A stretch of DNA of 60,059 nucleotides from a virus, in IMG/VR virus record IMGVR_UViG_3300042465_001922, positions 1-60,059 of that record; one strand, given 5' to 3'. The notes under the pieces are model-generated. The model saw nothing but the letters and a program-made list of their open reading frames with translations. It was not told the DNA's origin and ran no database searches. A program made the position numbers and the translations under genes. Of this stretch, positions 20,839 to 58,692 are shown piece by piece (the stretch's first letter is position 1; the number at the start of each line of letters is the position of its first letter).

Positions 20839-20914
20839 TGTTCTTCTCCTTTAAGTTTTCTTTAATAAGAATTTTTATATTTAAGCAATCTTTAATAAGT
20901 TTGCGTTTTTTCAT
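20831..20914 (-). CDS. Basic micro-protein (27 aa)
   Basis: A 27-codon frame, MKKRKLIKDCLNIKILIKEN then LKEKNNA, whose ATG overlaps the glycosyltransferase stop (ATGA) and whose TAA lies inside the next gene. Very AT-rich, with CTTATTAAAGA repeated twice. The coupled position supports it; the composition makes chance possible. Confidence 0.4.
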   Translation of the reverse strand: MKKRKLIKDCLNIKILIKENLKEKNNA

Positions 20915-21627
20915 AGCCCCGTTAACCTTCCTTCAAATGTGTATGTTCCGGTATGGTTCAGCATGATCCAGGGTGCTAGGTAGACCTTGCCACCGTGCTG
21001 CCGCCACAGCTTGCAAAATGAGTTGTCCTCTGAGTACAGCTTGGTGTTCTCTACCAATAGCCTGAAGAAGTTCTTGATCGGGCGGTCCTTGTGATCTGGG
21101 TGCCAGTACTCATCCACCAAAGGGGCCAGCTCCTCAAACACCCGGCGCTTGATCAGCATGAACCCGGTGGCTACGGTCTCCACCTCCAAGGGGTTCTCAA
21201 ACTTATGCTCTCCCTCTGTACCGGGGATGATGGCAAACGTCGGACGACCAGTGTGGTATTTCAACTGATCCACTGGGACGCCTGCCTTGACCGCCTTCTG
21301 AACCTCCTCCCAATCAATCATCTTCTTGGGATAGTTACCCGCGATCAGATCCTTGTTCTCCTCGATGAGGCTGAACACATGCTCCGGCTTAAACGATACG
21401 TCTGCGTCAATGAACATAAGGTGGGTGCAGTCCGTCTCAGCCAAGAAGTAATGAGCTAGCAGGTTACGGGCATTCACAATCAGGGCATCGTTGTTGACCA
21501 CCCGGATCTTGAGCGGCACGTTGTAATTCCGGCAGGCCACAGACAGATCAGACAGAGCCAGGGCGTAGGGTGAATAACACATCCCGCCGTACATCGGTGT
21601 AGCTACAAACAGTTTAGTACCTTTCAT
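20911..21627 (-). CDS. GT-A type glycosyltransferase
   Basis: A 238-residue protein with the GT-A fold: FVATPMYGGMC start, VNARNLLAHYFLAETDCTHL leading to MFIDADVSF with the metal-binding DAD at residues 74-76, then AGNYPKK and VETVATGFMLIKRRVFEEL. Similar phage proteins transfer sugars, perhaps to DNA bases, virion proteins or the host surface. It overlaps the methyltransferase by four bases, so the pair likely modifies the same target. A second protein of this kind lies at 57952-58692. Confidence 0.75.
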   Translation of the reverse strand: MKGTKLFVATPMYGGMCYSPYALALSDLSVACRNYNVPLKIRVVNNDALIVNARNLLAHYFLAETDCTHLMFIDADVSFKPEHVFSLIEENKDLIAGNYPKKMIDWEEVQKAVKAGVPVDQLKYHTGRPTFAIIPGTEGEHKFENPLEVETVATGFMLIKRRVFEELAPLVDEYWHPDHKDRPIKNFFRLLVENTKLYSEDNSFCKLWRQHGGKVYLAPWIMLNHTGTYTFEGRLTGL

Positions 21628-22187
21628 CTTTTCCTCACAATGGTTTGCGCTCCCCAGCCGACTAGCTGGGCTTCCTCTGCGAAGATGTTGACAAAAGCAT
21701 CAATGGCCATCTTGGGGCGATGCAGGATATCTCGTGAGTCTCCCCACATATAGTCATCAAAGACCATCAGACCACCTTGACGCAGCAGCGGCCACGCCAT
21801 ACAAGCATCGGTCAGAACATCCTTCGCCACATGAGAGCCGTCGATGTAGATGAAATCCATCTCCGGAGCGCCTGTAATAATGGTGGCAAGCGCTCGGTAA
21901 GACTCATCTTTTAACTTGTAAATTTTTTGCTCACTACGCTTGGCCTTTTTTACGTTGGTTTCAAACCTAGTTTCAACCTGATCAAAGTCTATGCCTTGGT
22001 GATCTTCGCCGCCGGCCCAGGTATCCACGCAGTACAAGATTCCATCATCGGTCAGCATGTTCTCAATGATCCACACAGCTGACTGACCTTCATATGATCC
22101 AATCTCCAAGACCCTGCCAGCCCTAGGGAACTGGGACCAGCCGTGGGCGGTACGTTTGAACCAGTCGTTAGTGAACTCGTAGCTCAT
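21624..22187 (-). CDS. Class I SAM-dependent methyltransferase
   Basis: A 187-residue protein. VLEIGSYEGQSAVWIIENML is motif I, CVDTWAG motif II, MDFIYIDGSHVAKDVLTDAC the acid motif with following helix, and GGLMVFDDYMWG the next strand. This is the sugar/macrocin O-methyltransferase-like (Methyltransf_24) type rather than a DNA methylase: no NPPY or DPPY motif. It would suit methylation of a sugar placed by the neighbouring glycosyltransferase. Confidence 0.75.
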   Translation of the reverse strand: MSYEFTNDWFKRTAHGWSQFPRAGRVLEIGSYEGQSAVWIIENMLTDDGILYCVDTWAGGEDHQGIDFDQVETRFETNVKKAKRSEQKIYKLKDESYRALATIITGAPEMDFIYIDGSHVAKDVLTDACMAWPLLRQGGLMVFDDYMWGDSRDILHRPKMAIDAFVNIFAEEAQLVGWGAQTIVRKR

Positions 22188-42633: not shown

Positions 42634-43482
42634 ATGTATGTTTATATTTGGAAAACACCAGACGCAATTCCGTTTTACGTTGGATTTTCTAAAAGCCGTC
42701 ACCGCACCAATCCCAATAATGGCGGCGGAAGAAATTGGCTTACCAAACAAAAACTTAGTGAAATTGGGTGTCATAACGTAATTGTTGAAATTCGTCCAGT
42801 TGAGTCAATTGTGGCCGGGAGAGCGCTAGAGCGCAATCTCATAGCAGAACTTGGTCGAATACAGACGGGAACTGGCACTTTAACCAATCTTCGTGAAGGC
42901 GGAGAAGGCACCTCATCGCCGTCCCCAGAGCATCGTGAAAAGTTGCGCCAACTTCTTTTTGACCCATCACATCCTGCGCACAGTCCAGAATCCCGTGCCA
43001 AACTTAAAAAACGTATGCAAGATCCTGATGTCAAAGCAAAATTTACGGGGGATGCAAATCCATCAAAGCGCCCAGAAGTGCGAGCCAAGCTCAAAGCCAA
43101 GTGGGCAAATCCTGATTTTAGAGCCGCAATGAAACTTGCAAGGACTGGGGTTAAACGAACTTTGTCTGAAGAAAATAAACAAAAATTACGAGACAGGTTA
43201 GCGGCCAATCCAAACATGTCAGGATGGTCAAGTCGCAATGGAAAAGACCTAGACTTTGAGGCTAAAAGAATAGATGGGATTCGTAAGGCCCAAGCAAAAA
43301 GAGTTGAAAAAATGTCTGATCCAGTTGCCTTGGCCCAGCGCAAAGAACGCCTTAAACAAACAATGAACTCTGAAGAATTTAAATCCAAACGATCCCAGTG
43401 GGATACCCCAGAATACCGAGCCAAGTTATCAGCGGCAAAGAAAGCATACTGGGAAAAAAGACGATCCATGATCAGCTCATAA
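42634..43482 (+). CDS. GIY-YIG homing endonuclease with NUMOD3-like repeats
   Basis: A 282-residue nuclease on the plus strand inside the leftward late region. YVYIWKTPDAIPFYVGFSKS is the GIY-YIG pair, and RALERNLIAELGRI has the metal-binding Glu. The remaining 190 residues hold repeated helix-turn modules (SPEHREKLRQLL, SPESRAKLKKRM, RPEVRAKLKAKW, SEENKQKLRDRL), NUMOD3-type DNA-binding units. A self-mobilising gene. AAGGAG precedes the ATG. Its 3' end overlaps the lysozyme gene by 11 bases. Confidence 0.85.
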   Translation: MYVYIWKTPDAIPFYVGFSKSRHRTNPNNGGGRNWLTKQKLSEIGCHNVIVEIRPVESIVAGRALERNLIAELGRIQTGTGTLTNLREGGEGTSSPSPEHREKLRQLLFDPSHPAHSPESRAKLKKRMQDPDVKAKFTGDANPSKRPEVRAKLKAKWANPDFRAAMKLARTGVKRTLSEENKQKLRDRLAANPNMSGWSSRNGKDLDFEAKRIDGIRKAQAKRVEKMSDPVALAQRKERLKQTMNSEEFKSKRSQWDTPEYRAKLSAAKKAYWEKRRSMISS

Positions 43483-43978
43483 ATAAAGCAATTTCGGCCC
43501 TGCGGCGGCGCGTCAATCCCTTTTCAAAAGCACTGCCCGGATTTACGTACATCATAAACCCCTCGGCAATTCTTTCCAACGGCTCATCCCTGACTATTCG
43601 CTGGCGAAGGGTAGACCTCTGAAACCCACCTACACCGATGTTGTAGCTAAGAGCGACACAAGCGTCAAACAAGCCTTGACGCCCAGATAAATTAGGGGCA
43701 AGTCGAAGAACACCGCGCTCAAAACTGACGAGGAGATTCTTGAAACGTTCCTCCAGTTCTGGCTTTGACCATAGACGATTGTGTTCTGGTGCAAGGGGGA
43801 ACTCCTTTCTGATCATTCCGGTATAGCCTTCTTTGCGAATCACTGGCAGGCGAATCTGTTCCTGATGCAGCACCTCACCCCAGCCCACAGTCCATATTGA
43901 TGCAGGACACAAATAGGGCCGGTCACGATACCCCTCAAACTGGTGCATTACGTGGATGCCTGCCTCGGATGTTTTCAT
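43472..43978 (-). CDS. Endolysin, T4-type lysozyme (GH24), Asp replaced by Cys
   Basis: A 168-residue muramidase that cuts peptidoglycan for lysis. Glu15 (HQFEGYRDRPYLCPASIWTV) is the catalytic acid, with Thr30 at the expected spacing; the middle residue, Asp20 in T4 lysozyme, is Cys24 here, a variant known in some phage GH24 enzymes. ALSYNIGVGGFQRSTLRQRI and a basic end RRRRAEIALFMS complete the fold. No signal peptide. It overlaps the holin-like gene by four bases. Confidence 0.85.
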   Translation of the reverse strand: MKTSEAGIHVMHQFEGYRDRPYLCPASIWTVGWGEVLHQEQIRLPVIRKEGYTGMIRKEFPLAPEHNRLWSKPELEERFKNLLVSFERGVLRLAPNLSGRQGLFDACVALSYNIGVGGFQRSTLRQRIVRDEPLERIAEGFMMYVNPGSAFEKGLTRRRRAEIALFMS

Positions 43979-45515: not shown

Positions 45516-45752
45516 CTACCATCCTTCCACTCTATTAATTTCAACAATGTCCACACCGGGGTGAAACGTCATTTGACCTATACATGCAATGTTCCAGTCT
45601 GGCCCGGTCTGCTCACTCCAGCTATAGGTATTAATTCGCACATGCCTGGCTAATATCTCGTTACCGTTTTCAAACACTCGCCACACATGTTCTTCACTTC
45701 CTCGGCCCGGCTCGCCTTTTGATTTATTAAACCGGATTAGATATTTGTTCAT
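45516..45752 (-). CDS. Small protein, unknown
   Basis: A 78-residue protein (MNKYLIRFNKSKGEPGRGSE start) that looks like a small beta sheet, with EEHVWRVFENGNEILARHVR and TFHPGVDIVEINRVEGW. It overlaps the assembly-protein gene by four bases. No family recognised. Confidence 0.5.
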   Translation of the reverse strand: MNKYLIRFNKSKGEPGRGSEEHVWRVFENGNEILARHVRINTYSWSEQTGPDWNIACIGQMTFHPGVDIVEINRVEGW

Positions 45753-46120
45753 TCAGGTCGGGTCGGCCATAACACTTCATTTGGATAGTTAGGTTGTAGC
45801 GGGATGTTTTGCAATTTCTTTTGATATTCAACCCACGCCTGCCACTGAGCTTTGCTTAATGTTGCCGTGTTTGCAATTGCTGCACTTGCTTCATCAAACC
45901 GAACTTTAATTTGTTCATCAACATTGTTTTGTAACGCACTTGACGGGTCTGGCGCGTCTACTTCAACCCAACAGCGATCCGTAATACCCAGCCATGACAA
46001 ATCTCCCAAACGATCTTTTACACCTTCCATGCCAAATATTGGACCCCAGTTTTCCGGTAGTGGTTGTAGGCCACCAATATTTTCACCGGTTTGCGGATTT
46101 TTTAGTTGCCACAGTTTCAT
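45749..46120 (-). CDS. Putative tail fibre assembly chaperone
   Basis: A 123-residue protein. The C-terminal half, TLSKAQWQAWVEYQKKLQNI followed by PLQPNYPNEVLWPTRPE, has the W..Y...L..IP....YP..V.WP.P pattern of phage tail fibre assembly chaperones. The N-terminus has GLQPLPENWGPIFGMEG. Located just downstream of the collagen-like tail tip gene, the usual place for a chaperone that helps fold the fibre. Confidence 0.6.
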   Translation of the reverse strand: MKLWQLKNPQTGENIGGLQPLPENWGPIFGMEGVKDRLGDLSWLGITDRCWVEVDAPDPSSALQNNVDEQIKVRFDEASAAIANTATLSKAQWQAWVEYQKKLQNIPLQPNYPNEVLWPTRPE

Positions 46121-46808
46121 TTGATACCTCGTTGTCTGCTTGTTGTTTCAGTTTCTCTTGACGTTTTATCTCTCGTTCACCGCTTCCTCCGGTGCCACCC
46201 GCCATATAAATTATGTTTTGATCTTCATCTAATGCTAATTTGTTGTGCAGAAGTCCATCTTCTTTGCCAACCATTAAATTTGGTGCGCCCTCTAAAAAAT
46301 CTTTCTGAGTAGTTATTTCACTTAAATCATCTTCATTTGCATAATTTTTTGTATTGGCAAGTATTTCCATAATACGTTTTGCTTCTTCATCGTCATACCC
46401 AGATGCACCAAGTTGTTGAAACACTGCCATATCATTTGGAAACGGAGGATGCCCATTAAGATGATTTTTTTCAGCTTCTGATACACGCCAGTCTCGCCAA
46501 CTAGAAAAATCTTTACGGGGTGTTATTTGAGCATTGCAACCAACATTAGCAGCTAATTGATGTATTAACTCAATAACTTCTACTGGCTGCATAAGACACC
46601 ACAAATGTCGCCCACCATCCCCACGCATCATAAGTTCTGTGGTTCCACCAAACGCTGTACCAACCATCATAGATCTAGCTCGGTTGTAATTACTTTCCCG
46701 GTTTTCTAAATCCATTTTGGCTTCAAATTCACGCAACTGCTCAGCATGCTTTACTGCTATTGCATTTTCAGTAGCTTGAATTTTTTTAACAGCTTCACGT
46801 TTTTTCAT
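46083..46808 (-). CDS. Tail-region protein, unknown
   Basis: A 241-residue protein starting at the ATG at 46808, which overlaps the stop of the tail tip gene (ATGA). N-terminal coiled coil (KIQATENAIAVKHAEQLREF), then a folded region with GRHLWCLMQPVEVIELIHQL and a C-terminal Gly/Lys/Gln-rich end (IYMAGGTGGSGEREIKRQEK). Overlaps the next gene by 38 bases. Perhaps a fibre-associated or assembly factor. Confidence 0.5.
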   Translation of the reverse strand: MKKREAVKKIQATENAIAVKHAEQLREFEAKMDLENRESNYNRARSMMVGTAFGGTTELMMRGDGGRHLWCLMQPVEVIELIHQLAANVGCNAQITPRKDFSSWRDWRVSEAEKNHLNGHPPFPNDMAVFQQLGASGYDDEEAKRIMEILANTKNYANEDDLSEITTQKDFLEGAPNLMVGKEDGLLHNKLALDEDQNIIYMAGGTGGSGEREIKRQEKLKQQADNEVSNETVATKKSANR

Positions 46809-48127
46809 TGCGGGTTCCATGAAATAACAATTTGACCACCAGGCGATGCAACTGTAATTGGGTATGAACCACCAGGAGTTACTGGTAGGCAATTAACTGT
46901 CGATGGTGTAGCAGCAGATCCTGAAGGTGTTGGCGATGTTCCACCAGCTCCACCAGCTCCTCCTCTTCCACCTCCTCCTCCCCCGCCAGACACGGTCCAT
47001 GAATTAAACGGGGCAGGAGTGCAAGGGAAAGAATATCCACTACCACCAGCTCCACCGGATCTATAAATTTGAGGAAAAGTTGGATTTCCTGGAGCTGGAT
47101 TTCCTCCATATGGGTTAAACGAAAACGGTCCTGGCCTACGACAATTGTACGGAGGGGCAAATGGAAATATACAATAAGACACAACATTTATAGATCTACC
47201 GGCTTGTGTGTTAAGTGCAGGCCACGGACCGTTTACATTGCTACCTATGCTTGATCCTCCAGTAGTGTTTACTGGAAACGCTGGTGTATATGCAGGAAGC
47301 AATGGCGCGCTACTGCAAGACCATGTACCACCTGCGGCACCTAAATAATTATTACACGGTGCAGCTGGAGGAAAATTCGATGCTGATGGTCCACTTGTTC
47401 CATCATTTGTAACTCCTGCGCCTCCACCGCCTGTACCACCTTTTACCCTCCAACAAGTCATATTAGGGTACGAAGTGCGTTGAAAATTGGCGCCGGATCC
47501 ACCATTTCCTCCGCCACTTCCACCCGATCCACCACTACTCGCTCCAGCACTAGATCCCGCACCGCCACCACCGCTATTTCCAGCATTTCCAGCCGCTCCA
47601 GCAACTCCAGCGTTTCCTCCAGCACCCCCATTAAATGTTTGAGATAAACCACTTGATGCGTTTCCAGTATTACCTGGATTGCCAGCATTTCCAGCATTGC
47701 CAGCATTTCCCGAAGCTCCTGAGCTTCCAGGATTTCCGGCGGTTTGGCATGGTCCATTCCCCTGATTACCACCAACAGTAAAATATGGTGCAGAAGGAGG
47801 AGGACTCCCTCCAAATACAGTTATATAACCTCCACACGGATCTGTGCCTTTCCAAGCACCACCACCACGATTTCCACATCTAAATTGATTAGTATTTCCG
47901 TCTTGCCGTGCTGCTCCTGAACCGCCTCCACCTCCACCAGTTCCAGGATTTCCTGGATTTCCAGAATTCCCAGCGTTACCAGGATTACCGGTTCCGCCTT
48001 TGCCGGTAATGCTTACTTTCTTAACTCCAGGGGGAACAGTAAATGTACCACTCGCATTAAAGGTTTGCGTACCGCCAGGAACTAACCCAGCCCCAAGAAC
48101 ACCAATTTTTGCTGATCCAATAGGCAT
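46805..48127 (-). CDS. Collagen-like glycine-rich tail tip/adhesin
   Basis: A 440-residue protein, over a third Gly. It begins with the usual fibre entry (GTQTFNASGTFTVPPGVKKV), followed by blocks of Gly-Asn-Pro/Ala/Ser repeats (GNPGNAGNSGNPGNPGTGG; GNAGNAGNAGNPGNTGN) and poly-Gly runs, mixed with aromatic loops holding ten Cys. This fits a polyglycine-II sandwich, as in the receptor-binding tip of phage S16 (gp38), with variable loops contacting the receptor. It lies directly downstream of four 2OG/Fe(II) oxygenase genes. Confidence 0.75.
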   Translation of the reverse strand: MPIGSAKIGVLGAGLVPGGTQTFNASGTFTVPPGVKKVSITGKGGTGNPGNAGNSGNPGNPGTGGGGGGSGAARQDGNTNQFRCGNRGGGAWKGTDPCGGYITVFGGSPPPSAPYFTVGGNQGNGPCQTAGNPGSSGASGNAGNAGNAGNPGNTGNASSGLSQTFNGGAGGNAGVAGAAGNAGNSGGGGAGSSAGASSGGSGGSGGGNGGSGANFQRTSYPNMTCWRVKGGTGGGGAGVTNDGTSGPSASNFPPAAPCNNYLGAAGGTWSCSSAPLLPAYTPAFPVNTTGGSSIGSNVNGPWPALNTQAGRSINVVSYCIFPFAPPYNCRRPGPFSFNPYGGNPAPGNPTFPQIYRSGGAGGSGYSFPCTPAPFNSWTVSGGGGGGGRGGAGGAGGTSPTPSGSAATPSTVNCLPVTPGGSYPITVASPGGQIVISWNPQ

Positions 48128-48129
48128 TT

Positions 48130-48711
48130 TTACCTCCTACTTTTAAGCCCCAAGCTTGGGCGCTTATCAAATTTATGGTCGGCGTTGGGGCCGTCCTGTT
48201 TAACGTAATGCAACATAAACTGCACATTTACTTCTGTTTCTGTAGCCGGTGTACGCCAGTGTTTAATTTGGCACCCATGATAAATACAAGCATCGCCAGG
48301 TTCAAGAACATGTTCCGATGGCTCTGACCCAGGAGCTTGCATCCAAATAGGCCAAGGCTTTCCAACAGTTGCTATATGACAAGTTACTGAAATTTCACAT
48401 GCCGGTCGGTCAGTATGCGGTTTAAGCTCGTCACCTTTGGTGTAGACCCTGGTAAATGAATATGACGGGAATAGCTTATACCCAGTAATTTCTTCCATCT
48501 CAGAAAGAGAGTTAACCAAAACCGTTTCAATTAGCGGATCTGCGTACCACGAAATCTTGCTGCTATCACCATCTCGACCACCTTGATTGTTTTCAGGATA
48601 ACGCTTTAATGAGTTTTCAAGATACCGGGAAATAGTTGATACCGATTGTGGATCAATAAACCCACGGACAATTGTGTAACCTTTGTTTTGAAACTCTTCA
48701 GTTCTAGTCAT
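48130..48711 (-). CDS. 2OG/Fe(II)-dependent oxygenase 1 (phytanoyl/PHM-like)
   Basis: A 193-residue protein (ATG 48711, AGGATGG upstream). The metal set is His99-x-Asp101 (KPHTDRPACE), His151 (GCQIKHWR) with an Arg soon after, and a core strand SFTRVYTKGDE. LEPGDACIYHGCQIKHW is the typical second half of the double-stranded beta helix. Oxidises a C-H bond using O2 and 2-oxoglutarate. First downstream of three more oxygenase genes, next to the tail tip gene. Confidence 0.75.
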   Translation of the reverse strand: MTRTEEFQNKGYTIVRGFIDPQSVSTISRYLENSLKRYPENNQGGRDGDSSKISWYADPLIETVLVNSLSEMEEITGYKLFPSYSFTRVYTKGDELKPHTDRPACEISVTCHIATVGKPWPIWMQAPGSEPSEHVLEPGDACIYHGCQIKHWRTPATETEVNVQFMLHYVKQDGPNADHKFDKRPSLGLKSRR

Positions 48712-49345
48712 AATAAAACCATCCTGTAACAATGTATTTGTATTTATCTGTTAACACAGGGTTTCCGCGATGCGCATGTGTATATGAAGCAGGCCACAAC
48801 AACATCAAGTTCTCTTCTGGTTTAACTCTGGTTCTTTGATACAAAAATTCAGTTTCCCCACCGTCATTATCTTCAAATGAGTTTAAATACACCATATAAA
48901 CCAAAACTCGATTAGCTTGTGTACCCGGACCTTGTTCTCCGTGCCAAACATGATAACCACCTCCGGGGCTGGTACGTTGCATCTTCATAACTGAAGCACG
49001 AATTTTTCCGTTATCCCGAAGTATTGAATATTTAGCTGTGTAATTGTCGTAGCAAGCTTGCAAACCATCAAAAAATAAATCACACGAATCTTTTTGAAAA
49101 TCTTTGGTTAACCCGTTCTCATCAACTTCATTCCATTTAAATGGTTGAAGATTGTGATTACGCAGCTCTATTCCTATTTGATAATCATCTTTAATGTGCT
49201 TATTTGCATTCTCTGATTTCTGACGATTGGCGCCAACACCACCTTCTTCAAGGCGATTGAATTCAGCAATCAAATGCTCACAGTATCCAGATGGATACAG
49301 GTTTCGGTAATAACCAATAAAGTCTTTGTGTTCTACGTCGTTCAT
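48704..49345 (-). CDS. 2OG/Fe(II)-dependent oxygenase 2 (prolyl hydroxylase-like)
   Basis: A 213-residue protein. YHVWHGEQG (residues 131-139) holds the first metal ligands, as H-x-E rather than H-x-D; VLVYMVYLNSFEDNDGGETE is the very typical P4H-like strand plus GGET loop; and LLWPASYTHAHRGNPV supplies the second His, followed by Lys in KYKYIVTGWF for 2-oxoglutarate. This is the P4H-like group common in cyanophages. Eight-base overlap with its neighbour. Confidence 0.75.
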   Translation of the reverse strand: MNDVEHKDFIGYYRNLYPSGYCEHLIAEFNRLEEGGVGANRQKSENANKHIKDDYQIGIELRNHNLQPFKWNEVDENGLTKDFQKDSCDLFFDGLQACYDNYTAKYSILRDNGKIRASVMKMQRTSPGGGYHVWHGEQGPGTQANRVLVYMVYLNSFEDNDGGETEFLYQRTRVKPEENLMLLWPASYTHAHRGNPVLTDKYKYIVTGWFYYD

Positions 49346-49935
49346 TTAAATGGTGGCCCCGATATCCATGCGACTAACGATTGACGACTTCCTTGCGTTA
49401 CAGGAGTTACTTGATGCAAGGTCCAAGATGGAAAAGCAACAATAAGACCGCGTTGCTTTCTCATTTTTAATACGTCCTTTCCATGAGTTTGAAGCTCTAA
49501 TACGCCACCCTCGTATTCAACAGGATCGGACAATTGCATTACCAAAGACAATTTTCTGCATGGAGCATTCGTATGCGGACCCATATCCACATGCCATCCA
49601 TACATTCCATTTTCAGATTCGTCATAATGAGTCAATTGAATTTGCTCACCAAACCCCGTTAAGTTAAATCTAAAAAATTGCGAGTTTAAATTTGAAACAA
49701 CGTGTGCCAATGTTTCAAATACCCAAACTGTTTCAGGAGTATTAGATAACCAGTGCAAACCCGATCTACGCACATTTTCATTAACCGAACCATTCCCACC
49801 GCCGCCAACCTCTGCTTTTACTTGAACATTACGAGCTTGTTGTTGCAACCAGTTCAATTGCTGGTCATTAAAAGCACCTTCCCACCAAGCATACGGTTCT
49901 TGCGCTTGATTATATGGGGTTAACAAATATTGCAT
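49342..49935 (-). CDS. 2OG/Fe(II)-dependent oxygenase 3 (PKHD type)
   Basis: A 197-residue protein with a complete active site: His115-x-Asp117 (YGWHVDMGP), His174 (FPSWTLHQVTPV) and Arg184 (GSRQSLVAWISGP). EGGVLELQTHGKD is the loop between. This is the PKHD-type hydroxylase pattern. Four-base overlap with oxygenase 2. Confidence 0.8.
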   Translation of the reverse strand: MQYLLTPYNQAQEPYAWWEGAFNDQQLNWLQQQARNVQVKAEVGGGGNGSVNENVRRSGLHWLSNTPETVWVFETLAHVVSNLNSQFFRFNLTGFGEQIQLTHYDESENGMYGWHVDMGPHTNAPCRKLSLVMQLSDPVEYEGGVLELQTHGKDVLKMRKQRGLIVAFPSWTLHQVTPVTQGSRQSLVAWISGPPFK

Positions 49936-50535
49936 TTAATTTTGTCTTTCTTTGCAACTTAATGTGAAATGAATAAATTTTGTTGATTCGGGAACTTGAT
50001 TAAAAGCAAACTGATGAGGAAGCCAGGCATTAAAAAACATAAATGTGCCTGGCGCCATGTTATTAAAATAAATCTTTGGGGTTCCAACTCTTAATTCATT
50101 ATCAGCCATCATAAAATCAGTCATGGCTTTGCTAGTTCTTGGATCTGAAAATATTGGAAACGATCCGCCTTCTGGAGCTTCTAAAAAAAACAAGCCACAC
50201 ATTTGCGTATTAGCATGAACGTGCGGCTCGTGCATTCCTCCCTGCCCTATTTCCTGCCCCCACATACCAGATGTGTAAAACTCAAATGGGTCGATAAAAT
50301 AACCCTGTTGCTTTAAAAGATCAGTAGCAGTCTTCGCAAAATAGTCAGATAAGAAAAATAATTCTGGATCATTGCCCATGTGACCAGTCTGTGTCACCGG
50401 CCAAGTCATGTTTCTTTCTTGGTCTATTTTCTTTTGCTCTGCGTAATACCTTTCTGAGTTTTTTAAAACATGATCGACCCACTCGGGCTTTTCTTCCCGA
50501 TACACGGCAGAAGGAAAATAGTGAAACTCATTCAC
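49936..50535 (-). CDS. 2OG/Fe(II)-dependent oxygenase 4 (TIGR02466-like)
   Basis: A 199-residue protein of the putative 2OG-Fe(II) oxygenase type with His105 and His107 (HEPHVHANTQMCGLFFLEAP), a GGSFPIFSDPR loop, and a late PGTFMFFNAWLPHQFAFNQV with His174. The acidic ligand between the His residues is not obvious, so the chemistry may differ. Completes a run of four related enzymes. Confidence 0.7.
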   Translation of the reverse strand: MNEFHYFPSAVYREEKPEWVDHVLKNSERYYAEQKKIDQERNMTWPVTQTGHMGNDPELFFLSDYFAKTATDLLKQQGYFIDPFEFYTSGMWGQEIGQGGMHEPHVHANTQMCGLFFLEAPEGGSFPIFSDPRTSKAMTDFMMADNELRVGTPKIYFNNMAPGTFMFFNAWLPHQFAFNQVPESTKFIHFTLSCKERQN

Positions 50536-50747: not shown

Positions 50748-51725
50748 TTAAGAAAGGTTTTTCATTGGGATTGAAACGTAATAAGTGGTTCCACCGTCAG
50801 GTGTCATAAAGAACCAAATATCTGTTGCATTAGCGGTCGTAGTCCGTGTGACCGATCCATCGGGATACTTGAATGTACCACCGGCAAGTGTCACCGTCCG
50901 ACCTGGTGTTGCATCATTGGTAAGAATCAACACGAATGATGATGCTCCTGATGACACGGGATACCGAAGCGTAAAGGTGCAGCTACCGGTAAGGGTTGCC
51001 GTAAAGACTCCGCCACTTGTTACGTCTACGTTGATAGCCGTGCCTGTGTTGCCAAGGGCCGTGACCGTGTCGGCATATCCAGCTGCCTTAACAAAGTTAC
51101 CGGTAGTAACCGCTGCTGACAGGGCCAGCAAACTCGTGCTTGAAGGGGCCACGCCTGCGCCGCCACCGATCACAAAGTTATTTGCTGCAAGCGCACCAGA
51201 GGAGGCTAAGACTCCAGAAGCAGTGTAAGCCAGCACACCGCCGGAGGTTCCAGATGTTAGTCCGGTTCCGCCGTTTGCTACCGGCAGAGTTCCGCTAACC
51301 CCAGTGGTCAGGCTGACTGCCTCGTTAGAAGCAATCTTGACAAAGTCTGATCCATCCCAGGCTACGCAAGCATTTTTACCAGCTGCAATCGTCACACCGG
51401 TTGTGGCCGATCCTTTGACCACTACTGCTGCGTCTGACTGATTGATAACAAAGTAAGCCTTGCTTGAAGACGGGGCGATGATGTTTCGGCTGACCCCAGG
51501 AGACCCGGTCGGCTTGAGAATTGCGCATCGAGCCTGGTTAGCTGACCCAGATCCGGTGGTTGATAGCGTCCAGTCACCACCAGCTACGCTGGCTGTGGCC
51601 GTCTGAGCGACAGAATCCTCGACCAGCTGAGTAATACTGTCGTTAACTGTGGTACCCCACGTACCGGATAACTCCCCGGTGGTAGGTAGGGCAAACCCTA
51701 ATAGGGTGGTGTAATTAGTTGCCAT
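50748..51725 (-). CDS. Tail fibre-like virion protein
   Basis: A 325-residue beta-rich protein. TLLGFALPTTGELSGTWGTT at the N-terminus is a particle-anchoring motif seen in many phage fibres, and GTLPVANGGTGLTSG is a widespread fibre repeat. The rest is Thr/Ser/Ala/Gly-rich beta. It precedes the oxygenase run in transcription order. Likely attaches to the tail and carries or supports the tip. Confidence 0.65.
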   Translation of the reverse strand: MATNYTTLLGFALPTTGELSGTWGTTVNDSITQLVEDSVAQTATASVAGGDWTLSTTGSGSANQARCAILKPTGSPGVSRNIIAPSSSKAYFVINQSDAAVVVKGSATTGVTIAAGKNACVAWDGSDFVKIASNEAVSLTTGVSGTLPVANGGTGLTSGTSGGVLAYTASGVLASSGALAANNFVIGGGAGVAPSSTSLLALSAAVTTGNFVKAAGYADTVTALGNTGTAINVDVTSGGVFTATLTGSCTFTLRYPVSSGASSFVLILTNDATPGRTVTLAGGTFKYPDGSVTRTTTANATDIWFFMTPDGGTTYYVSIPMKNLS

Positions 51726-51734
51726 GTTTGATCC

Positions 51735-52802
51735 TTATGCTGCTGTGTTGATTTGTTCCCAGTTTGCTGCCTGAGCGTCATTAATAATCGTCCAACCTCT
51801 AATCAAAACTGTTCCGACAGCGCCGGTTCCGGCAACTCCGGTTACAAGTTTACTATCGTCTATCTCAATTTCAACCGTTCCGATAGCCCCAGTCCCAGAT
51901 ACTCCGGTGGGTTTGCCTGCCGCAAGCGGTGTCGTGGTTCCAACGGCCCCTGTGCCTTCCACCCCGGTTGGGATGACGGTCTCGTCGAATTGAGGCGTTA
52001 CCGTTCCAACAGCTCCGGTAGCCCCAACGCCATCTACAAGCACCTCAAATACAAAGATGCCGGCAGATACCGCACCGGTTCCTTGTACTCCAGTTGGTGT
52101 GTATGAAATTGCCGGGGTGGTGGTTCCTACCTGACCAGTTCCCTGTACCCCAGTCGGAATGACGTTTTCCCCAACGCTGAAGGAAACCGTACCGATGGCA
52201 CCTGTACCCTGAACACCGTCTGGGATGTAAGCATCATTGGTCTGGAAAGTGACCGATCCAATATCTCCGGTTCCGGCCACCGATATAGAGCCGTTACCCC
52301 AGCCTCCGCCACCCCAGTTGATTGATCCCCAACCATCAAAGTACACGGTCCGGTCAAACACCTCGACCATCTGGGCATCGCCCACGGCTCCGGTACCCTG
52401 GACGCCATTGACGATCAGAGCGTCATCAATCTTGATCAGTACATCTCCAACCGCCCCTGTGCCGCTGGCCCCGTTTGGAGTTTCGGTTAAGAGATAGTTG
52501 GCCGGAGCTGCTACTGATCCAGTTCCCTCGACTCCGGTGACTTCTACAAGCTTAAGAACCTGTGTCGCAACATTGTTAACTGCACCTGTTGCGCTGACGC
52601 CGGACTGGGTATAAGAAACAAGCGGGGTCTCATCACCAACCGCACCTGTTCCGACAACCCCGGTGACATTAGATGTTATTTGGAAGGACACGGAGCCTAC
52701 GGCCCCGGATCCTGAGACGCCGGTTACCTGGTAATAGGAAAGGTCAAGTCCCCAGGTGCCTTCACTCCAAGGGACTTCACCCCAGCCAGCGTAGACCGGC
52801 AT
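51735..52802 (-). CDS. Repetitive virion protein with about 12 GV-GTGAVG-V repeats
   Basis: A 355-residue protein built mostly of about 20-25-residue repeats ending in GVxGTGAVGxV, with DNA-level repeats (GGAGTACAGGTTCC-like) underlying them. Two WGxxxWGxGxWG patches lie near residues 5-15 and 155-165. Repeats suggest a beta solenoid. The motif is also found at the end of the tail protein at 39072-40028, so the two may stack or dock. Confidence 0.7.
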   Translation of the reverse strand: MPVYAGWGEVPWSEGTWGLDLSYYQVTGVSGSGAVGSVSFQITSNVTGVVGTGAVGDETPLVSYTQSGVSATGAVNNVATQVLKLVEVTGVEGTGSVAAPANYLLTETPNGASGTGAVGDVLIKIDDALIVNGVQGTGAVGDAQMVEVFDRTVYFDGWGSINWGGGGWGNGSISVAGTGDIGSVTFQTNDAYIPDGVQGTGAIGTVSFSVGENVIPTGVQGTGQVGTTTPAISYTPTGVQGTGAVSAGIFVFEVLVDGVGATGAVGTVTPQFDETVIPTGVEGTGAVGTTTPLAAGKPTGVSGTGAIGTVEIEIDDSKLVTGVAGTGAVGTVLIRGWTIINDAQAANWEQINTAA

Positions 52803-57664: not shown

Positions 57665-57952
57665 TTAACCGCATCTCCATCGTTTCAAAGATTGATTTAA
57701 CCGGCTGTTTGGATCACGTTTGGTTTCCGGATTGGCTAATTTTTTCATGCCTTCCATCCTTGCGCAAAACGATTTCCGTCGAGCTGCACGTTTGCCGGTA
57801 GGGCTTGATTCAGTAACAGCAGTTTGTAACTTTGAGCCAGGGTTGGCTTTCCGATAGGCGGCAACGCCCTTGGCGGTCATGCCAGCACCCTGCTTGGTGG
57901 GACGAAAGTTACCCGACTTCACCGAAGTTTTGATGCCCATTCCCTTGGCCAT
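57665..57952 (-). CDS. DUF6321 basic protein
   Basis: A 95-residue basic protein. GMTAKGVAAYRKANPGSKLQ, TGKRAARRKSFCARMEGMKK and KRDPNSRLNQSLKRWRC match the DUF6321 family, short proteins with a conserved RRKSFCARM..MK block and a terminal W.C, found in phages and bacteria. Probably nucleic-acid binding. One-base overlap with the glycosyltransferase gene. Confidence 0.75.
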   Translation of the reverse strand: MAKGMGIKTSVKSGNFRPTKQGAGMTAKGVAAYRKANPGSKLQTAVTESSPTGKRAARRKSFCARMEGMKKLANPETKRDPNSRLNQSLKRWRCG

Positions 57953-58692
57953 TACGCTGCCTCCTTAGCGGCATCTACCGGGCGCAGCCGGGGATAGAGA
58001 TAGTCTTCTCCAAAGTTCCCTTCAAACTCATGTACGCCCATGTGACCAAGCTTAATTGTTGGGTCAATCCAGACGGTAAATCCAGCCTGTTTTGCCCGCT
58101 CACAGAACACAAAATCCTCACCCATGTAGCCTTCTTCCTGATTTAACAGGAAGTCAAAGTAGGCATACATATCGCAATCGTGGTTCTGATCGTAATATTT
58201 CCACTCTGGATGCTTTTCTTTCAGAGTCTCGAATACAGTCCGCTGGATCATAATGAACCCCGTGCCAACGCGCTTGGCTCGGACAAGGCCCATCGAGTCC
58301 ATCATTATGTTTCCGTCTTCGTCTTGATCCAGCATGGAGAAGTAAACCTTCTCCTTTTTCCTGGCGCATCCAACACCGGCCACAATCGGACGGGTCTTAT
58401 TAAATGCCAGAAGTCGGAAGATGTCATCGGCATTAATGACCATATCTGAGTCCACCATAAGCAGGTGGTCGCAGTCGGATTCCAAGAACAATTTAGCGAT
58501 ACTGTTACGTACACGGGAGACCACGGAGCATCCAGAAATATTAGCCAACTGGACTCCAACTCCGTGTGCCTGCGCCTTAACGCAGAACTCCGCTAACGAA
58601 ATGGCTAGCTTTACGCTTATCTTAAAGTCATAAGCAGGTAGGCCAATAAAGACCTTGCTGCCAACCAGATCGTAGGATTGTTCTTGTTTCAT
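57952..58692 (-). CDS. GT-A type glycosyltransferase, second copy
   Basis: A 246-residue protein related in layout to the one at 20911-21627: KVFIGLPAYDFKISVKLAIS, VRNSIAKLFLESDCDHLLMV leading to DSDMV with the DSD metal motif at residues 81-83, AGVGCARK, and AKRVGTGFIMIQRTVFETL, then EDFVFCERAKQAGFTVWIDP. It lies among virion genes, so it might decorate a capsid or tail protein, while the other copy sits with a methyltransferase. Confidence 0.75.
   Translation of the reverse strand: MKQEQSYDLVGSKVFIGLPAYDFKISVKLAISLAEFCVKAQAHGVGVQLANISGCSVVSRVRNSIAKLFLESDCDHLLMVDSDMVINADDIFRLLAFNKTRPIVAGVGCARKKEKVYFSMLDQDEDGNIMMDSMGLVRAKRVGTGFIMIQRTVFETLKEKHPEWKYYDQNHDCDMYAYFDFLLNQEEGYMGEDFVFCERAKQAGFTVWIDPTIKLGHMGVHEFEGNFGEDYLYPRLRPVDAAKEAA

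Follow-up and report, generated by a model that had tools for sequence, protein, structure and literature searches.

Why would a virus carry four consecutive genes for 2OG/Fe(II) oxygenases next to a gene for a glycine-rich protein? Marine phages often encode 2OG oxygenases, whose function has been called cryptic (PMC9301287) and for which DNA repair, nitrogen control and iron metabolism have been guessed as roles. The locus analysed here belongs to an uncultivated, water-borne virus of bacteria (IMGVR_UViG_3300042465_001922); the window is the whole 60,059-nt stretch of this record, and the oxygenase block occupies positions 46805-50535 on its minus strand.

The oxygenase block and its four enzymes

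In order of transcription the block reads OxyA, OxyB, OxyC, OxyD and the Gly-rich gene. With its neighbours, it comprises the following features:

50748-51725, minus strand: gene upstream of the oxygenase cluster, a conserved neighbour by synteny in relatives; PHROG_31104, a label without function
49936-50535, minus strand: OxyA, GTG start, 199 aa; 2OG-Fe(II) oxygenase of the PF13759/TIGR02466 type with an HxH...H site
49342-49935, minus strand: OxyB, 197 aa; PF13640 2OG oxygenase, PiuC/PKHD-like, H115xD117/H174/R184
48704-49345, minus strand: OxyC, 213 aa; PF13640, prolyl-4-hydroxylase-like, H135xE137/H192/K203
48130-48711, minus strand: OxyD, ATG start, alternative TTG at 48732; 2OG-oxygenase fold, PHROG_2954
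46805-48127, minus strand: Gly-rich putative adhesin, 440 aa, the proposed substrate; conserved caps, triplet core, loops
46083-46820, minus strand: gene 3' of the adhesin gene, ATG at 46820; conserved, co-varies with the adhesin
45749-46120, minus strand: tail fibre assembly chaperone-like protein, 123 aa; PF16778 (4.9e-6), PHROGs 4628 and 8746

The preceding ORF overlaps OxyA by 4 bases, OxyA and OxyB abut, OxyB overlaps OxyC by 4 bases and OxyC overlaps OxyD by 8; a gap of 2 bases separates OxyD from the Gly-rich gene, which shares 16 bases with the gene at 46083-46820. The latter, found behind the Gly-rich gene in nearly all close relatives, had no family match in the Pfam search or in a further family search. 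The original prediction of four distinct genes of 2OG/Fe(II)-oxygenase fold, in a tight run before a 440-residue Gly-rich gene, agrees with these ORFs and coordinates.

Profile searches, which the prediction had proposed as a check, place OxyA, OxyB and OxyC among the 2OG oxygenases of Pfam, PHROGs and NCBIfam. OxyA matches PF13759 (7e-10, above cut-off), PHROG_81 and TIGR02466 (1e-15, yet under that family's own cut-off), and its site, H105xH107/H174, invariant in 11/11 homologues, has HxH/H in place of HxD/E. OxyB matches PF13640 (4e-15, above cut-off) and, in PDB profile searches, 3dkq and PiuC (1e-12 to 1e-11); its facial triad and Arg are complete in all 12 homologues. OxyC also belongs to PF13640 (9e-13, above cut-off). 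Its PDB profile matches are exclusively prolyl-4-hydroxylases (P4Hs), at marginal E-values: 2.5e-4 to 8e-4 for 5c5t and about 0.01 for 3itq and 5hv0, with the span reaching 0.02. The best of these matches are 2OG oxygenases that we take to be the P4Hs of chlorella virus PBCV-1 (5c5t) and Bacillus anthracis (3itq, 5hv0). OxyC thus looks prolyl-4-hydroxylase-like at the sequence level, collagen-type P4Hs being its closest solved relatives, albeit marginally. It differs from them by its weak similarity, by HxE in place of HxD, by its usual company of other oxygenases and by its strict coupling to one phage adhesin family. H135xE137/H192/K203 is present in 58/58 homologues, but the motif is atypical in its HxE and doubled His: H132 and H190 are likewise invariant, leaving the exact proximal and distal His ambiguous. 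Among the matches listed from cultured phages, OxyC homologues are at most about 37% identical.

OxyD had no Pfam match, and the Pfam search assigned none of the four proteins to an AlkB family. Structure prediction, another of the proposed checks, was run for OxyD and returned a 2OG-enzyme fold: the AlphaFold model is a double-stranded beta-helix (pLDDT 93.1, pTM 0.89) whose Foldseek matches in the PDB are SnoN, the P. putida P4H and PHD2 (E about 1e-8 to 1e-7). H106xD108/H158, numbered from the TTG, is present in 60/60 homologues; these residues are 99/101/151 from the ATG, as numbered originally. The near-complete ligand sets first claimed for OxyB, OxyC and OxyD are therefore invariant, and no conventional 2OG-binding Arg/Lys was found about 10 residues past H158 in OxyD homologues.

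Coupling of OxyC to the Gly-rich gene

Co-occurrence of the block with the Gly-rich gene across related phages, also named in advance as a check, proved real, specific and reciprocal. OxyC is the enzyme most strictly coupled to this gene: in 73 of 75 non-redundant loci of its subfamily, the Gly-rich gene lies at most three genes downstream, against 130 of 1332 (9.8%) other ORFs of the same contigs. This adjacency is not due to chance (Fisher p 2e-64, with shared ancestry ignored). In the reverse direction, 94 of 96 non-redundant Gly caps have OxyC no more than 3.2 kb upstream, the first reciprocal cap set having been seeded from OxyC-linked members; the two exceptions are a case truncated where its contig stops and a second paralogue. 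Of the divergent caps that were collected irrespective of enzymes, most also adjoin 2OG oxygenases. One locus (L282) had appeared to be free of oxygenases, a reading overturned by OxyB- and OxyA-like genes and, by eye, a likely further oxygenase just beyond the first locus end.

Where gene order is rearranged, OxyC and the Gly-rich gene stay together and OxyB-OxyD are relocated. OxyA, OxyB and OxyD are each absent from some relatives, OxyD being found in about half of the clusters. A case named at the outset as refuting, oxygenases kept without a Gly-rich gene, is absent from OxyC-subfamily loci with context, bar two borderline loci at 202 bits, but does occur for distant cyanomyovirus homologues of OxyC.

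Comparison of the window with a related locus (L102) adds a pattern of co-divergence. The flanking virion genes share, for the most part, 95-100% identity, against 45% for the body of the adhesin. OxyA (88%), OxyB (85%) and OxyC (78%) diverge along with the adhesin and the chaperone (73%); OxyD does not, remaining 96% conserved though the adhesin diverges. The gene at 46083-46820 is 67% identical to its counterpart, with flanks conserved on both sides.

A probable polyglycine-type adhesin

The Gly-rich product was first described as a Gly-Asn/Pro repeat protein. Its length of 440 residues and its composition (26% Gly, 9% Asn, 11% Pro) bear this out, but the repeats cover only part of the length, with 19 triplets in total in strict Gly-X-Y runs and no run longer than 9 triplets. 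Conserved caps at the N terminus (about residues 1-60) and C terminus (about 400-440) enclose a core of Gly-Asn-Pro/Ala triplets, broken by GG-rich segments and by hypervariable loops rich in Pro, Asn and Cys. Across 58 such proteins, Pro is strongly biased to the Y position (Y:X = 310:17) and Asn to X (X:Y = 529:38); in the window, Pro occupies X in 0/19 strict triplets. This is the reverse of the Pro placement in phage and bacterial collagens (PMC3368898, PMC8968730), and of that in the collagen-like proteins of two related contigs, L159 and L217 (Pro X:Y about 57:13). A collagen triple helix is rejected in view of the short triplet runs and this placement of Pro and Asn, and the earlier label "collagen-like" was too loose for a protein that, from its sequence anatomy, looks like a gp38/Pam3-type polyglycine adhesin.

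As in polyglycine-II (gp38-like) proteins, a Gly-rich core is combined with hypervariable loops between conserved motifs. The same core, conserved motifs and hypervariable receptor loops are shared by gp38 of phages S16 and PP01 and by the glycine-rich domain of the Pam3 fibre gp24, which requires a tail-fibre assembly chaperone, as may be compared with the chaperone-like gene near the block; the descriptions consulted make no mention of an oxygenase. Compared with gp38 and gp24, the window protein has longer Gly-Asn-Pro/Ala runs and no significant sequence or fold match: the structure model is confident for the caps and part of the core but not for the loops, its top Foldseek match in the PDB is the Pam3 fibre at E 1.2, and a PDB sequence search with the Gly-rich profile returned only low-complexity noise. 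No member of the cap family was found among cultured phages, nor any relative in the bacterial genome collection.

The Y position, where Pro concentrates, is the site used by collagen hydroxylases, which is consistent with P4H-type action. As proof of hydroxylation, however, the bias was downgraded after L271, a Gly-rich member with the same bias in which no oxygenase was found on a contig that stops 1.7 kb past the gene; because of this case, the way polyglycine helices pack may account for the bias instead of hydroxylation. The composition of the Gly-rich protein barely differs with and without OxyD, with small uncorrected differences only.

Proposed substrates of the oxygenases

OxyC adjoins the Gly-rich gene in nearly all related viruses, which makes it probable that the virus hydroxylates the tip with which it binds its receptor. 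We infer catalysis, substrate, residue, timing and effect from what is observed, namely the 2OG fold, conserved ligands, coupling, co-divergence and Pro/Asn bias. The Gly-rich product would be a polyglycine-type adhesin at the tail-fibre tip, and OxyC, translated just ahead of it, would hydroxylate the nascent adhesin, most likely at the Y-position Pro of Gly-Asn-Pro triplets, prior to chaperone-assisted folding. Further residues of the adhesin (Pro or Asn in triplets or in hypervariable loops), or else neighbouring tail proteins, could be the targets of OxyA, OxyB and the optional OxyD. As an effect of hydroxylation, the triplet bundle might become more stable or the receptor-touching loops might be tuned. 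We consider it reasonably probable that the adhesin is a main oxygenase substrate, and equally so that the block is a maturation cassette for a receptor-binding protein; the choice of Pro as the hydroxylated residue is more tentative. The Bacillus P4H prefers Y-position Pro in Pro-Pro-Gly peptides (PMC8968730), and PBCV-1 is cited in PMC9301287 as a virus carrying a P4H.

Were this reading true, bacteriophages would hydroxylate a virion protein of their own, against what has been published on Gly-X-Y proteins of bacteria and phages, namely that they lack prolyl hydroxylation (PMC3368898); phage infectivity would be tied to the host supply of 2OG, Fe(II) and O2, and enzymes until now classed as viral "metabolism" genes would gain a role. 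Since a P4H-like enzyme and a hypervariable adhesin are paired almost one to one, a specific and cheap test is feasible, with (Gly-Asn-Pro)n, (Gly-Asn-Ala)n and GNTPPVSPPQGN as candidate substrate peptides for OxyC, OxyB and OxyD. More speculatively, aquatic tailed phages could run a dedicated hydroxylation system for receptor-binding tips, in which OxyC and accessory oxygenases make hydroxylated polyglycine bundles and many phage AMG oxygenases are tail-fibre maturation enzymes. In the open-access literature we found no paper linking a 2OG oxygenase or prolyl hydroxylation to a glycine-rich phage tail fibre.

The oxygenases could instead hydroxylate several tail or virion proteins, the adhesin being a neighbour and not the main substrate. 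The cyanomyovirus T4-like GC240 oxygenase (S-PM2 p225, Syn1 039), an OxyC homologue of 34-37% identity, points this way: it stands alone at its junction, directly after a gp12 short tail fibre without Gly-X-Y runs, although this place behind a tail-fibre gene suits the cassette reading as well. In relatives, the block is also bordered by other genes that are probably structural (50748, 51735), of which the one at 50748-51725 encodes a possible alternative substrate. We regard this explanation as unlikely, since the OxyC-subfamily gene keeps to the Gly-rich gene when all else moves.

Still less probable is an auxiliary role in which host metabolites, nitrogen/2OG signalling or damaged DNA (AlkB-like) are the targets and the position among tail genes is incidental. 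Such roles have been proposed for marine phage oxygenases, in DNA repair near uvsX/uvsY (PMC2984593), in nitrogen metabolism (PMC4164917) or as partner AMGs (PMC9599517); the 73/75 adjacency, the co-divergence with the adhesin and enzyme matches to P4H/PiuC rather than AlkB argue against such a role here. It is slightly more doubtful again that the enzymes act in series on a decorated side chain, perhaps followed by glycosyltransferases encoded elsewhere, the mini-pathway also raised by the original prediction. Four non-identical enzymes in fixed order would suit it, as would a gene at 20911 with weak glycosyltransferase matches and its relative at 57952, but OxyA, OxyB and OxyD can each be missing and the block itself contains no glycosyltransferase.

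HTVC023P-type pelagiphages also count in favour of self-hydroxylation of the tip, since they carry a run of OxyB, OxyA and OxyD homologues close to Gly-rich (PF21722) proteins. Their order is Gly-x-x-B-A-D, the oxygenases coming soon after Gly_rich_2 proteins of another type (GNTPPVSPPQG motif), and the three annotated genomes contain no OxyC of the window's subfamily. These clusters of oxygenases and "ferrochelatases" have been read as AMGs, and their co-location has been remarked upon (PMC9599517). That OxyD homologues are ferrochelatases serving the oxygenases, as proposed for these phages, is very improbable: PHROG_2954/3531 and GenBank homologue names do say "ferrochelatase", but the beta-helix fold, the invariant HxD...H and the lack of any ferrochelatase match in Pfam or among the listed PDB matches argue against it for OxyD. 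In PHROGs, "alkylated DNA repair" matched OxyD only at E 0.09. If the tip is indeed hydroxylated, many phage "metabolic" genes and "ferrochelatases" would be reclassified; the latter name is probably a misannotation on OxyD homologues, so that the published iron-metabolism reading needs revisiting.

Four oxygenases and a probable Gly-rich adhesin

The window (the whole 60,059-base virus record) contains portal, terminase, lysozyme and virion genes, together with four genes of the 2OG/Fe(II)-oxygenase type, OxyA to OxyD:

50535-46805, - strand, four consecutive oxygenase genes, then the gene for a 440-aa Gly-rich protein
OxyA, - strand, Pfam match PF13759
OxyB and OxyC, - strand, both with Pfam match PF13640
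48130-48732, - strand, OxyD, filed in PHROG_2954 as 'ferrochelatase'
Directly downstream of the Gly-rich gene, a conserved gene
Downstream of the Gly-rich gene, a tail-fibre assembly chaperone-like gene, PF16778 match

The Pfam search matched OxyD to no family; its AlphaFold model is a double-stranded beta-helix (mean pLDDT 93.1), and the solved structures that it matches best belong to 2OG enzymes, PHD2 and a bacterial prolyl hydroxylase among them. These Pfam matches and the OxyD model bear out the original observation of four different oxygenases in one run before the Gly-rich gene. Alignments revealed metal-ligand residues invariant among homologues for each enzyme, and profile matches of OxyC to the collagen prolyl 4-hydroxylase (P4H) family were weak.

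The label 'ferrochelatase' is attached to OxyD homologues in PHROG_2954/3531 and in many GenBank records; homologues occur in HTVC023P-type pelagiphages (L003:8998-9618, L004:8983-9639, L005:8995-9639). The OxyD fold and the HxD...H motif indicate that they are 2OG oxygenases. Because of this, the oxygenase-'ferrochelatase' partnership proposed in pelagiphages as an iron-partner story (PMC9599517) probably rests on misannotated OxyD-type oxygenases.

Aligned relatives of the Gly-rich protein share an N cap (MPIG..K.G.LG....PGG..TFN.SGTFTVP.GV..V.ITG.GG) and a C cap (TFNCV.VTPG.SYPITV..PGGQ.VISWNPQ), with stretches of Gly at every third residue and loops highly variable in sequence and length; in the AlphaFold model, confidence is high for the caps and for some of the triplet core, but not for the loops. 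The collagen label originally proposed for this protein did not hold. In its anatomy it resembles polyglycine-type adhesins, for example gp38 and Pam3 gp24, in which the variable loops are believed to contact receptors. Structure comparison of the model gave no significant match, and the N cap aligned with that of pelagiphage Gly_rich_2 (PF21722) at an hhalign probability of 72% (E 3e-5) over only 30 columns.

Coupling of OxyC to Gly-rich genes

The order A-B-C-D-Gly is kept in close relatives (L006-L021), with the block cut in some contigs and, in two, C and D separated by an additional ORF. In a wider scan on OxyC alone, C or the C-D pair was almost always followed directly by a Gly-rich gene: among the best 80 matches per scan, 73 of the 75 non-redundant loci whose context was usable had one downstream (arbitrary threshold of 19% Gly and 120 aa or more; redundancy reduced by a simple 5-mer rule), against a background of 130/1332 other ORFs in the same loci, with p-values that ignore shared ancestry. 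The two exceptions score barely over the 200-bit line, below which none of 23 OxyC homologues has a downstream Gly-rich gene, so the coupling is particular to this OxyC subfamily. In several contigs B-D are located apart from C, which still precedes the Gly-rich gene.

Conversely, OxyC lies at most 3.2 kb upstream of 94/96 non-redundant proteins bearing the conserved caps (best 80 matches per scan, the first reciprocal scan being seeded from OxyC-linked proteins). More divergent cap proteins, found regardless of enzymes, are in most cases preceded by C or followed immediately by enzymes of the B/C type; where there is no such neighbour, a contig end cuts the locus close to the gene, IMG/VR contigs being mostly fragments. 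Co-occurrence of OxyC and the Gly-rich gene across relatives was recovered in both directions.

HTVC023P-type pelagiphages display another arrangement of the same association, one to four Gly-rich proteins being followed at a short distance by B-A-D, and in cyanomyoviruses an OxyC homologue directly follows the gp12 short tail fibre. In most HTVC023P-type loci, including L003:938-6634, L004:2016-6223 and L005:3386-7458, the Gly_rich_2 proteins have a conserved GNTPPVSPPQGN-like motif in common, which may be a site of hydroxylation close to the oxygenases. A PHROG_7084-type protein with an LKRCPPxLDAM motif (L271:6774-7463; L290:1494-2210, the latter judged by eye) adjoins divergent Gly-rich adhesins and in L290 sits inside a run of oxygenases.

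Proline and asparagine positions and the proposed role

Collagen prolyl hydroxylases act at the Y position of Gly-X-Y triplets. In strict triplets of 58 non-redundant adhesins, Pro occupied Y over X at 310:17 and Asn X over Y at 529:38, Gly-Asn-Pro being the commonest triplet. In the collagen-like proteins of L159 and L217, contigs that also carry cap-family proteins, Pro is found in X. The same placement has been described in collagens of phages and bacteria, where it is attributed to the absence of prolyl hydroxylases (PMC3368898, PMC8968730). Any inference of hydroxylation from the Pro-Y bias is tempered by L271, which shares the Pro/Asn bias with no oxygenase visible in its 20-kb fragment; the bias could arise from the way polyglycine helices pack.

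Gene coupling, folds and ligands are observations; substrate, residue and consequence we infer. Our best reading casts the block as a maturation cassette: OxyC would hydroxylate the Gly-rich adhesin, with OxyA, OxyB and OxyD as putative accessory modifiers.

Long Gly-[Tyr/Ile/Phe]-Ser triplet repeats make up other proteins (L159:469-7392, L244:7942-10131, L217:3-854), the L159 one comprising 619 triplets with tail-fibre PHROGs.

Divergence between near relatives

In a gene-by-gene comparison with L102 (which is the contig also numbered L007), virion genes flanking the adhesin on both sides are mostly 95-100% identical, lysozyme excepted, whereas identity is 45% for the adhesin body, 67% for the next gene and 73% for the chaperone, the pattern that a host-range hot spot would be expected to leave. 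The lysozyme (43472-43978) is only 39% identical to the L102 copy between genes at 98-99%, and was apparently swapped. The 51735-52802 protein, with repeated GVxGTGAVG units, diverges more than its neighbours (67-68% identity to L009 and L011, 95% to L102). Between lysozyme and structural gene 40700, a + strand ORF (42634-43482, start MYVYIWKTPDAIPFYVGFSK), GIY-YIG-endonuclease-like by eye, opposes the local gene direction and is without counterpart in L007. Two window genes, 20911-21627 and 57952-58692, are both similar to one HTVC023P protein, gp78; the former has weak glycosyltransferase matches and adjoins a methyltransferase gene (21624-22187).
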